From Candidatus Gastranaerophilales bacterium (GTDB taxonomy: Bacteria > Cyanobacteriota > Vampirovibrionia > Gastranaerophilales > Gastranaerophilaceae), in assembly GCA_944325555.1 (NCBI GenBank), contig CALVAN010000002.1:1-64000 (forward strand): a stretch of 64,000 nucleotides of DNA, read 5' to 3'. Both the position numbers and the translations under genes were made by a program. Positions within the stretch are counted from its first letter, which is position 1. Each line of letters opens with the position of its first letter. Under the pieces are notes generated by a model. That model searched no databases and was not told the DNA's origin. It worked only from the letters and a program-made list of their open reading frames with translations. This document shows, one piece after another, positions 1,662-6,522 of this stretch.

Positions 1662-1784
1662 TTTTACCTATCGGTAAAATTTTACAAAATTTTTATCTAA
1701 AAATCAACATTTTTTACCGAGCGGTAAAAAACACATGCTCGGAAACAATTTTTGATCCAAAATTTACCGTACGGTAAATTTTGG
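1662..1784. promoter_or_regulatory. Three palindromic hipBA operators
   Basis: Three sites share the form TTTACC-N4-GGTAAA: 1662-1679, 1712-1729 and 1757-1784. The last extends to a perfect 28-base palindrome. Their centres (1670.5, 1720.5, 1770.5) are exactly 50 bases apart. The likely ligand is HipB. The half-site differs from the TATCC sites of Escherichia coli HipB, but the arrangement of several palindromes ahead of hipBA is the same. Confidence 0.85.
1679..1707 (-). promoter_or_regulatory. hipBA promoter
   Basis: On the minus strand TTGATT (1702-1707) and TAAAAT (1679-1684) are separated by 17 bases. The -10 touches operator 1 and the -35 lies five bases from operator 2, so a repressor filling both would block RNA polymerase. 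Confidence 0.6.
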
Positions 1785-2141: not shown

Positions 2142-3212
2142 ATGAAATTTTTTAGATTTTTGGTTTTAGTTTTTGTTTTGTCGGTTTCTATCACACATGT
2201 TTTGGCTAATACTGAAAATTTAACACCAAACACCTCTGTTGATACTTCGTTGGTAGTTCAGCAGCAAATTGCTGTTGAAAATGATAGCAACAAAGATAAT
2301 ATTGAAACGGATTTTACTGAATTGAAAGACAAAAATGTAACTATAGATGACAACTTGTATGATATTGTTGATCCTGCTTATCAAATACCTTCAGCACCAA
2401 GTGATGACACAAATGTTGAAGAAAAGCCTGGCGGCAGTGCTGTCGATGCTGTACTGACACCTGTAGGCTGGGCTATTGGCGGAGTTATTGCCCCTGTTTA
2501 TCTCGGCATTCAATTTAGCGGAGATGCAATTGCTTGGAGCATAGATAATGTTGTTGAACCTGTAGCCGGCGGTATAGCAAAGGGGATTTATTACGGTGCA
2601 ATTATGCCGGTTGGAAAAACTATAGAATGGAGCGTTGAAAATGTTGTTTCTCCGACTTTGGAAGGGATTGCCTGGGGGGCAGGAAAAACTTTTGATTATG
2701 TAATGATTCCGACGGCAAAAGGAATTTATTGGGCTTTGGATAAAACTTTTGATTATTCACTGGTTCCAGTCGCAAAAGGGCTTTATTGGACGGCTGACAA
2801 AACTTTTGATTATACAATAGTACCGACGGCTAAAGGTATATACTGGACTGTAGACAAAACTTATGACTATGTGCTTCTCCCTGCGGCAAAAGGTGTTTAT
2901 TACGGTGCTGATTTCGGGTTTGATTATGTTGTTGTTCCGTTTTCCAAAGGTATTTATCAGGGGGCTAAATTTATAGCGCTGCCTGTCGGTAAGAGTATTA
3001 TGTTCGGTGCAAAATATACGATTGTTCCCGCCGCAAAGGGTATCGGCTACGGTTTTAGTGCAATAGGCAGCGGTATTGAATGGAGTGTCGATAACATAGT
3101 GGAACCGGTCGGAGAAGGAATATGGTATGGTATCGACAGAACGCTTACTCCGATAGGCAATGCAATTGATACTGTTTTTGACGGAATTGTGTCGGTATTT
3201 GGTAATAATTAA
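2142..3212 (+). CDS. Secreted protein with 15/19-residue Pro-Lys-Gly-aromatic repeats
   Basis: The 356-residue protein is not a family I recognise. A signal peptide (about 1-22) is followed by an acidic, probably disordered segment (23-100) and then repeats to the C-terminus. Repeats have the form P-x-x-K-G-I-Y-W. Prolines at 171, 190, 209, 228, 247 and 266 are exactly 19 residues apart, while several flanking ones (266, 281, 296 and 322, 337) are 15 apart. The 19-residue form adds a DKTFDY-like insert. Glycines and aromatics alternate, which suggests an extended surface or membrane-contacting fold. It is monocistronic with its own promoter. Export is likely; function is unknown. Confidence 0.8.
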   Translation: MKFFRFLVLVFVLSVSITHVLANTENLTPNTSVDTSLVVQQQIAVENDSNKDNIETDFTELKDKNVTIDDNLYDIVDPAYQIPSAPSDDTNVEEKPGGSAVDAVLTPVGWAIGGVIAPVYLGIQFSGDAIAWSIDNVVEPVAGGIAKGIYYGAIMPVGKTIEWSVENVVSPTLEGIAWGAGKTFDYVMIPTAKGIYWALDKTFDYSLVPVAKGLYWTADKTFDYTIVPTAKGIYWTVDKTYDYVLLPAAKGVYYGADFGFDYVVVPFSKGIYQGAKFIALPVGKSIMFGAKYTIVPAAKGIGYGFSAIGSGIEWSVDNIVEPVGEGIWYGIDRTLTPIGNAIDTVFDGIVSVFGNN

Positions 3213-4366: not shown

Positions 4367-5578
4367 TTATCCCTGTTTTAAAAATTCCGGAATCTGGCAG
4401 GCTTCTATCGTGCCCGTAACAATTTCCCATTCCGGCATTGCTTCTTGCAGCTCATCTCTCATGTGAGCAAGCAGCCCCGGGATAATAATTTTTCTTGTGT
4501 TGACTTTTTCTAAAAGACCGAAGTTTTTAACCGAACGGGCAACAAGCTCTGCCGTAAACTTATCCGCTGACCACGCCGTTAACACGCTCATTCCGTCAGA
4601 TGGTGTAACAACAAGATATGAGCCGAACGGCAGTGACTCCAGTTCTCCTGCAACCGCAAAATATGTCAGTGCAAAGTTTGTGGTCAAAAGTATGGGAGCG
4701 TTTTTGTCGGGTTCGTTGAATTCATATACTTTAGCCTCAACCTGCAGAGGTTTTTGAGGGTTAGTATAAATATTTTGCCGTAATGTAAAAATTGTTGATA
4801 AAAGTGCAGCGTCAAACACTGGCAAAACAAGGATGTTTGCGTATCTGCAAAGCAAAACCGATGCTGCTGCCGTTAGTTGAAAAATATCCCTATCATAAGG
4901 AAGTTTGACCATAACAGGGTATGTAAAAGGTTCGTGGCGTTTTATGATTGCAGCACGTCTGATAAATGTAAGCTCCTGTACAATATCTTTTAAGCTTTTT
5001 TTGTACTCAAGCTCAAGTATAATATCTTTTGCTCCCTGTTCAATGGCTTTAACCGAAGCTTTTTCCATTGATTCAAAGTCCGCTGCGCTCACAATTTTAT
5101 ACGTAGACATTGCGGAAATCACCGTAATTCCGGCAGCTTCAATTTTTTTTGTGGCTTTTTCAAGGTTGCTGCCTGTCAGATAAATTGCATCAACTTTGAA
5201 CTTTTCGCCTATTCTTTCAATTTCATATTTTGCAATTTGCTCAAGCTTTTTGTCAAAGTCTTTGTCGTCGGAATTAAGAGCAACAGCAATTACCGTACGG
5301 TTAACAAAGGTTCTGTCGTGGCGGTACATAACTGTTTCACCGCCTGTTATAAGAGAGTCTGATAATTTTATTTCGTGCTGTTGAATTTTTGAGGATTCCG
5401 CAAATTTTTCCTTAAGCTCCGGCGGAACATGAGGGCACTTTTCTATGTCAGCCTGCTTTTTGGCAAGCTTCAGTGCGTATGCCATGCAGGTGGGACAGCC
5501 GCATTGTTTGCAGTTTGTTCCTTCTGCTTTTTTTGCTCCCGGAAGATATTTAAAAATTTGCATACCTGTCAAATTCAT
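4367..5578 (-). CDS. acsC: Corrinoid iron-sulfur protein, large (gamma) subunit
   Basis: The 403-residue protein matches the AcsC/CdhE family, which carries a [4Fe-4S] cluster and a methyl-cobamide. The cluster ligands are C23, C26, C31 and C48 in the usual CX2CX4CX16C arrangement within GTNCKQCGCPTCMAYAL. A TIM-barrel domain and a C-terminal corrinoid-binding domain follow. In the Wood-Ljungdahl pathway this protein passes a methyl group from methyltetrahydrofolate to acetyl-CoA synthase. Its ATG shares one base with the acsD stop, so the two are coupled. No acsA, acsB or acsE lies nearby, so another methyl acceptor is possible. Confidence 0.85.
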   Translation of the reverse strand: MNLTGMQIFKYLPGAKKAEGTNCKQCGCPTCMAYALKLAKKQADIEKCPHVPPELKEKFAESSKIQQHEIKLSDSLITGGETVMYRHDRTFVNRTVIAVALNSDDKDFDKKLEQIAKYEIERIGEKFKVDAIYLTGSNLEKATKKIEAAGITVISAMSTYKIVSAADFESMEKASVKAIEQGAKDIILELEYKKSLKDIVQELTFIRRAAIIKRHEPFTYPVMVKLPYDRDIFQLTAAASVLLCRYANILVLPVFDAALLSTIFTLRQNIYTNPQKPLQVEAKVYEFNEPDKNAPILLTTNFALTYFAVAGELESLPFGSYLVVTPSDGMSVLTAWSADKFTAELVARSVKNFGLLEKVNTRKIIIPGLLAHMRDELQEAMPEWEIVTGTIEACQIPEFLKQG

Positions 5579-6486
5579 CAGTTTTTATCCCCCTTGAGTA
5601 ATGATTTGAGTGCTTCAACACTTTTGGGATTCCATAAAACAACAATGTCTGCGCCTGCGCTTATCATCGCAGATGCTCCTGCTATTTCCCACATAGCTGC
5701 TCTCTCTTTATAATCACCCCATTGTTCGCTAAAGGTATCGGATTTAGCCTCTTTTGCCCTGTAAGATTCTTCTCCGATGAAGGCAATCACCGGCATGTTG
5801 AGCATAGTGTCGCCGTCAAAAGCGGCCTGTCGAATTTTTTCAATAATGCTGTAGCCGTAATCAAGCCCATATCCAAGTCCGCCCATATCAGGGTCAATAA
5901 GAATCCTGTCAGGGCTGATTCCTTTGTCTATGGATAGAATATTCAACTCTTTTGCAAGGTTTATATCAATCGGGCTGCGCAAAACAAGAATATGATTATT
6001 TTTTGCAATGACTGGAACAATCTGTTCGTAGGTACTTTCCTGGGCAAAGGAAATAATGCATTCCTTTGGCGCAAATTCAGAAAGCAGCGGCAGCAGTTTT
6101 AAATCCACGGGGTCGTTGTTGGCCCCTCTCAGTATAAGAGGCTTTTGTATTTTTGATAAAGTATTTTTCAAGAAGTCTTTTATTTCTTCAAGATGGGAAT
6201 CTATATTATTCTCCGTAAGATTAAATTTTACGGAAATTATGTCAGCTTTTGAGTTTTCCGCATTTTTTAACATTTGCTCAATCGTTGAGCAGTTCCACTG
6301 TTCTTTTAAAACTTCGGGGTATGTGTTGTCCAAAATATAAGGGATTTCTATTGCAACAATGGGGTGAGCGTTATTGCCGTTTTCTTCCATAAAAGAGCGA
6401 GCGCTGTTCCCACCGATAGTTAAATCCCCGAGTTTTGTTTTTCTTATTTTTTCTTTAATGCCGAAAGACAGGTCTGATTTGTTCAT
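5578..6486 (-). CDS. acsD: Corrinoid iron-sulfur protein, small (delta) subunit
   Basis: This is the AcsD/CdhD-type TIM-barrel partner of AcsC. The DPDMGGLGYGLDY and MPVIAFIGEE segments are typical of the family. I place the start at the ATG ending at 6486 (302 residues). An upstream in-frame TTG at 6522 would fall inside the predicted -35 box. The promoter predicts transcription starting at or one base before the ATG, and no Shine-Dalgarno is visible, so translation may be leaderless. The stop overlaps the acsC start by one base. Confidence 0.85.
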   Translation of the reverse strand: MNKSDLSFGIKEKIRKTKLGDLTIGGNSARSFMEENGNNAHPIVAIEIPYILDNTYPEVLKEQWNCSTIEQMLKNAENSKADIISVKFNLTENNIDSHLEEIKDFLKNTLSKIQKPLILRGANNDPVDLKLLPLLSEFAPKECIISFAQESTYEQIVPVIAKNNHILVLRSPIDINLAKELNILSIDKGISPDRILIDPDMGGLGYGLDYGYSIIEKIRQAAFDGDTMLNMPVIAFIGEESYRAKEAKSDTFSEQWGDYKERAAMWEIAGASAMISAGADIVVLWNPKSVEALKSLLKGDKN

Positions 6487-6493
6487 AGATTTT

Positions 6494-6522
6494 ATATTAA
6501 AAAGTAAATGTATTGTTGTCAA
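6494..6522 (-). promoter_or_regulatory. acsDC promoter
   Basis: TTGACA (6517-6522) and TAATAT (6494-6499) are separated by 17 bases on the minus strand. The predicted start is about 6487, directly at the acsD ATG. Confidence 0.6.

Follow-up and report, generated by a model that had tools for sequence, protein, structure and literature searches.

Evenly spaced Hip operators as such have already been described. In the tripartite HipBST system of Legionella pneumophila, three operators lie upstream of hipB with even 53-bp gaps in nearly all species that carry the system, and each of them, placed alone on a 50-bp fragment, bound HipB, with intermediate occupancy being suggested, unlike for Escherichia coli HipB (PMC10653801). 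For E. coli, it is reported that HipB binds cooperatively (PMC3376134), that the N-terminal subdomain of HipA takes part in dimerisation during DNA binding (PMC6581861), and that the hipA7 substitution (G22S) is thought to disturb HipA dimerisation in HipA/HipB/operator complexes (PMC7029023). The hipBA1 and hipBA2 promoters of Caulobacter crescentus are also counted among the closest known systems (PMC7029023).

Here we compare with these systems a hipBA locus of Candidatus Gastranaerophilales, located in a window (the whole stretch of DNA that was analysed) of 64,000 nucleotides. The locus resembles Legionella HipBST in having three evenly spaced candidate operators upstream of hipB, and it resembles O1-O4 of E. 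coli K-12 in having several putative HipB operators round the promoter at a fixed, family-specific spacing. It differs from both in detail. The Legionella motif is an 18-nt site with asymmetrical copies (PMC10653801), its pitch is longer (about 71 bp centre to centre if the 53-bp gaps are edge to edge, against 50 in the window), and its toxin is split into HipS and HipT, whereas the HipA of the window is a single 413-aa protein with both domains and thus not of the tripartite type. In E. coli K-12 the motif is TATCCN8GGATA, the spacings are 28, 39 and 28, and HipB belongs to the PRK09726 family. We found no description of a 50-bp hipBA pitch, or of its conservation in the Y4mF-type family, in the open-licence literature searched, where the matches listed for a Y4mF operator paper held no mention of Y4mF.

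Gene order and domain content identify a hipBA type II toxin-antitoxin operon: hipB lies directly upstream of hipA on the same strand, and HipA matches PF13657 and PF07804 above cut-off, TIGR03071, and HipA structures at 1e-49. HipB scored 76.8 bits against TIGR03070 (cut-off 71.65), which places it in the Y4mF/couple_hipB family, and 20.3 bits against PRK09726, the E. coli HipB family (cut-off 79), which leaves it outside the E. coli type with its TATCCN8GGATA operators. Comparable TIGR03070 scores (71.4 to 77.2) were obtained for five relatives with a pitch of 49, 50 or 60 bp (L086, L097, L111, L107 and L084), L107 falling just below the cut-off, and a relative with a 39-bp spacing (L278) scored lower, at 62.9. 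Among solved HipB structures, HipB(Lp), 8ezt, is nearest in sequence (E 8.4e-6), and the closest named relatives, among the best 80 of 537 by HipA similarity, are Candidatus Gastranaerophilales genomes. With PADLOC, the hipB/hipA pair received no convincing assignment. The position of E. coli Gly22 corresponds to Gly24 in the HipA of the window and is invariant in 16 of 16 aligned HipA sequences, a conservation that may serve folding only.

Upstream of the two genes, the palindrome TTTACC-N4-GGTAAA (TTTACCNNNNGGTAAA) occurs in three exact copies (Table 1). Both centre-to-centre spacings are 50 bp, or 4.76 turns at 10.5 bp per turn, in agreement with the original prediction of three such palindromes phased at about 4.8 helical turns. 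The outermost site had been described as a perfect 28-base palindrome, and it is identical to its own reverse complement across all 28 bases. A whole-genome scan of 2.32 Mb returned three exact motif matches, every one at the hipBA promoter, where about 0.26 would be expected by base composition; a reversed-pattern control motif gave zero matches in the same genome. Together with the hipA and hipB domains and the fact that the motif travels with the HipB family, this uniqueness makes the assignment of O1-O3 as candidate HipB operators of the hipBA operon well supported, with HipB as the presumed binder.

Table 1. Positions of genes, candidate operators and predicted expression signals of the hipBA locus in the window.
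Feature	Position	Strand	Description
hipA	190-1431	minus	413 aa; Couple_hipA and HipA_C domains
hipB	1439-1660	minus	73-aa HTH antitoxin, Y4mF/couple_hipB family; HTH_3
Candidate operator O1 (proximal; centre 1670.5)	1663-1678		TTTACCTATCGGTAAA; minus strand reads TTTACCGATAGGTAAA; exact motif match; overlaps the predicted start of transcription and the likely hipB Shine-Dalgarno
AGG of likely hipB Shine-Dalgarno	1667-1669	minus	inside O1; read from sequence
Predicted sigma-70 hipBA promoter	1679-1707	minus	-35 TTGATT (1707-1702), 17-nt spacer, -10 TAAAAT (1684-1679); position conserved in relatives
Candidate operator O2 (centre 1720.5)	1713-1728		TTTACCGAGCGGTAAA; exact motif match; 5 bases upstream of the -35 hexamer
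Candidate operator O3 (distal; centre 1770.5)	1757-1784		28-bp palindrome round TTTACCGTACGGTAAA (1763-1778); exact motif core

A transcription terminator, rather than an operator, could also take the form of the palindrome at 1757-1784, and a terminator scan does flag it on the plus strand, with a stem of 12 followed by CTTTTTAAGA. However, no plus-strand gene reads into it, since hipB runs left and the next ORF (2142) runs right, its core is an exact match to both O1 and O2, and relatives keep it at a distance of 49-50 bp, so that we consider this alternative very improbable. No Rfam match at gathering score was obtained within the window, and none of the ten Rfam matches listed for 1600-2200 (up to E=5) reaches its own gathering score.

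The promoter had been placed between the two inner sites, and a promoter-like stretch is indeed found there, occupying the 34-bp gap between O2 and O1. By itself the promoter scan is weak, with 4 promoter-like sites in 1400-2300 against 4.3 expected in shuffles; relatives carry stronger promoter hexamers at the same place. The predicted transcription start falls close to 1672, inside O1 and some 7 nt beyond the -10 hexamer, which would give a leader of about 12 nt. Among relatives, the spacer is GATA in 30 of the 32 sites that lie no more than 14 nt from the hipB ATG (GAGA and GAAA in one each), whereas operator sites elsewhere have a G..C spacer in 59 of 63. The restriction of GATA to O1 is explained by this site holding both the start point and the AGG that precedes the hipB ATG. 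A messenger hairpin formed from O1 was also considered and rejected, since a start point within the site would leave only its second half in the leader.

Conservation of the spacing was assessed in loci gathered by HipB similarity (146 relatives) and by HipA similarity (537 relatives found, of which the best 80 were kept, giving 79 loci), with further loci from the HipA_C family and from a profile of 16 HipA sequences (A1) in five phyla. The collection comprised 354 loci, 347 of them with HipA; insufficient length removed 10 regions, and the others beyond the 269 distinct hipBA upstream regions that form the analysed set were duplicates or contained Ns. With at least 10 of 12 motif positions required and spacing left unconstrained, the scan of these 269 regions found 329 sites (14.2 in shuffles), and at least two sites were present in 113 regions (0.8 in shuffles). 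Adjacent sites were 48-51 bp apart in 195 of 208 cases, and exactly 49 or 50 in 186, in the unfiltered histogram of this motif scan. The same held for 121 of 130 spacings when one region was kept per 70%-identity HipA cluster and for 53 of 57 at 50% identity. A palindrome-pair detector blind to both motif and spacing likewise arrived at 48-51 bp in almost every relative of the HipA of the window. By record titles, the lineages that keep the pitch belong to at least six phyla, namely Cyanobacteriota-related lineages (Gastranaerophilales, Vampirovibrio and Obscuribacterales), Elusimicrobia, Proteobacteria, Bacteroidetes, Acidobacteria and Verrucomicrobia; a locus titled Brachyspira (L063), whose HipA is 64% identical to that of the window, was left out as a seventh. 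The original prediction had made itself dependent on conservation of the spacing in related loci, and on this point it has been borne out.

Two simpler accounts of the pitch do without contact between proteins. According to the first, operators would be bound independently, and their 50-bp distance would reflect nothing more than the room that a core promoter of about 29 bp needs between two of them. The proximal interval is consistent with such bracketing: in the window the 34-bp gap is taken up by the stretch from -35 to -10, and promoter hexamers in relatives score 8.72 of 12 against 7.60 in shuffles (n=46 clusters). However, the distal O3-O2 interval is equally long and carries no promoter signal above shuffles (7.39 against 7.37 of 12 in 33 chains; for this hexamer comparison, and for part of the interval-identity comparison, intervals came from chains defined as 48-51 bp). 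Moreover, one relative (L065) has five sites spaced 50, 50, 50 and 49, and we therefore regard bracketing as an unlikely explanation. The array of L065 consists of identical 50-bp units head to tail upstream of hipB, and it grew by duplication with the pitch retained.

Such units also speak for the second account, in which independent sites would merely have inherited their distance as a functionless relic of tandem duplication or recent horizontal transfer, as does a HipB 97-99% identical to that of the window in five other species, one of them from another family of the order. Yet in 46 of 47 loci the identity between the proximal and distal intervals does not exceed 60% (mean 0.375, shuffled 0.321), L065 being the exception, and between distant relatives the distal intervals share 30.1% identity (28.6% when shuffled), with operators that are 73% identical. 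Between distant loci the spacer stays 33-34 bp long while its sequence is near random. On a HipA tree of 81 rows (labels covering proximal intervals of 36-64 and distal intervals of 30-70 bp, with L335 and rows with a HipA under 300 aa dropped), a minimum of 23 changes is required for the proximal spacing and of 22 for the distal one, and these repeated changes remain in 48-51 bp in all but four rows (60 in L083 and L084, 54 in L060, and 36 for the distal interval of L093). We accordingly hold inheritance of length to be improbable. How far O1 lies from the start codon varies widely (dyad-to-ATG -18 to 204, with rough, automatic ORF starts).

Distal intervals that lack a promoter signal, are near random in sequence and still have the same length are explained neither by promoter bracketing nor by descent of the spacer. 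The pitch is thus real and under selection, in a hipBA autoregulatory region that is otherwise ordinary, and the claim that fixed phasing matters is supported in that 48-51 bp is kept in divergent relatives, promoter-free intervals included. What is conserved is the spacing from operator to operator, to within about 1 bp, which suggests rigid contact between neighbouring complexes.

Our preferred reading, which we consider probable on comparative grounds, is that the array autoregulates hipBA and that its pitch has been selected since neighbouring HipB or HipBA complexes touch, giving cooperative binding. From the sequences we infer HipB as the binder, repression, protein contact and cooperativity alike, contact between neighbouring complexes being the reading that best fits the pitch. 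HipB dimers, with or without HipA, would occupy O1, O2 and O3. A bound O1, lying over the predicted transcription start and Shine-Dalgarno, would block initiation, and a bound O2 would occupy the DNA next to the -35 hexamer on its upstream side, so that occupation of both would exclude RNA polymerase; O3 would contribute a third bound complex upstream. Selection would hold the 49-50 bp centre-to-centre pitch in that adjacent complexes touch in a fixed geometry and hence bind cooperatively. The contact would most likely be made via HipA, because the N-terminal subdomain of E. coli HipA takes part in dimerisation during DNA binding, and the assembly would then be of the same kind as in E. coli, on a longer pitch. 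The invariance of Gly24, at the position altered in hipA7, speaks for this reading. The structure paper behind E. coli HipA dimerisation is reportedly Schumacher 2015.

The looped binding that the original prediction had offered beside cooperativity finds no support. DNA has a persistence length of about 150 bp; since 50 bp is far below this and does not correspond to an integral number of turns, bent DNA with complexes in contact side by side would fit better. A loop joining HipB at distant sites (O1 and O3, 100 bp apart) would agree with three equally pitched sites and with the DNA bend of about 70 degrees reported for E. coli HipB (PMC3920265). But 28 of the 110 regions that hold a 48-51 chain have two sites only, at a distance of 48-51 bp that is too short for easy looping, and 50 bp (4.76 turns) is a fractional number of turns, which leaves the loop with little probability. 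Contact between neighbouring complexes has evidence against it as well. Such two-site chains count against it too, as do breaks of the pitch by non-whole turns (54, 36, 20 and 83 bp), and the even array of Legionella HipBST is one in which HipB bound to each operator by itself, with a suggestion of intermediate occupancy (PMC10653801). Cooperative rather than independent binding would remain the best inference from the conserved pitch, and the Legionella sites temper this part of the prediction.

Departures from the pitch within the family are of two kinds. Spacings of 60 in L083 and L084, of 60 and 59 in L094 (absent from the 269-region set owing to a partial HipA match) and of 39 in L278 deviate by about whole turns. 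Breaks that do not are a spacing of 54 in L060 and, in L273 and L274, an additional site lying 20 bp downstream. Unexplained are two 50-bp pairs lying 36 bp apart in L093, and the single pair 83 bp apart in L019 and L020 (G132 and G127), two members that carry relatives of the motif. The whole-turn pattern consists of small counts and was spotted after the fact, and as deviations of about one turn occur alongside those of 54, 36, 20 and 83 bp, we do not claim quantisation. A universal phase modulo 10.5 across Hip families, considered from spacings of 28, 39, 50, 60 and 71 bp, was likewise rejected: the families with pitches of 31 and 40/41 misfit, and a shared helical phase is also broken inside the family of the window by the 54, 36, 20 and 83 bp deviations.

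Other Hip families have pitches of their own. The motif-blind detector gave 27/28 bp for E. coli-type loci, with 37-39 bp between pairs, and the control locus L225, which passes PRK09726 at 144.1, showed spacings of 28, 39 and 28. Among more distant HipA-family loci with other palindromes, the pitch is 71-72 bp in L311, L314, L316, L319 and L338 and 40-41 bp in L321, L308, L323 and L261. Several of these loci are HipT-sized, and in L321, L145 and L319 (pitch 40/41 or 71/72) the toxin gene is preceded by an ORF that is HipS-like by our own reading. A further group of Hip loci has a pitch of 31. Deviations of about one turn are seen in other families too, with 61 in L313 and 31 in L286 and L287. 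From the family-specific pitches and the whole-turn deviations (50 becoming 60 in two lineages and 49 becoming 39 in one, along with 71 to 61, 41 to 31 and 28 to 39) it could be hypothesized, albeit tentatively, that the pitch is a protein-encoded ruler across the HipA superfamily, one per HipB family (27/28, 31, 40/41, 49/50 and 71), with deviations tending to whole turns. Higher-order assembly of HipBA or HipBST along DNA would then be ancestral and not a peculiarity of E. coli.

The finding is modest in kind and yields a clean, testable comparative rule. In E. coli, lost HipA dimerisation between promoter-bound complexes has been linked to high persistence (hipA7). A pitch held within about 1 bp over at least six phyla, across promoter-free and unrelated DNA, makes the generality of such an assembly testable by spacer variants. 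The pitch also provides a simple signature for sorting hipBA operons into families.

Some further observations concern the cassette and its surroundings. A HipB 99% identical to that of the window, with the same operator array, occurs in another family of the order (L007, in G098) and likewise in another genus (L005, in G037), and the hipBA cassette has likely been transferred recently. The genome of L013 contains, at G031:C30:1662-1879, a second, broken hipB-like copy with one internal TGA about 3 kb from the intact hipB. In the window, the plus strand at 2142-3212 encodes a protein of 356 aa whose start is signal-like and which contains several imperfect KGIYW..DKTFDY-type repeats; it had no Pfam or NCBIfam match. 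On the minus strand at 4367-6522 lie two adjoining genes that resemble the gamma and delta corrinoid subunits of acetyl-CoA decarbonylase/synthase, at 362 bits for gamma (cut-off 306) and 222 bits for delta (below the cut-off of 280), with a lactate/malate dehydrogenase-like gene beside them.
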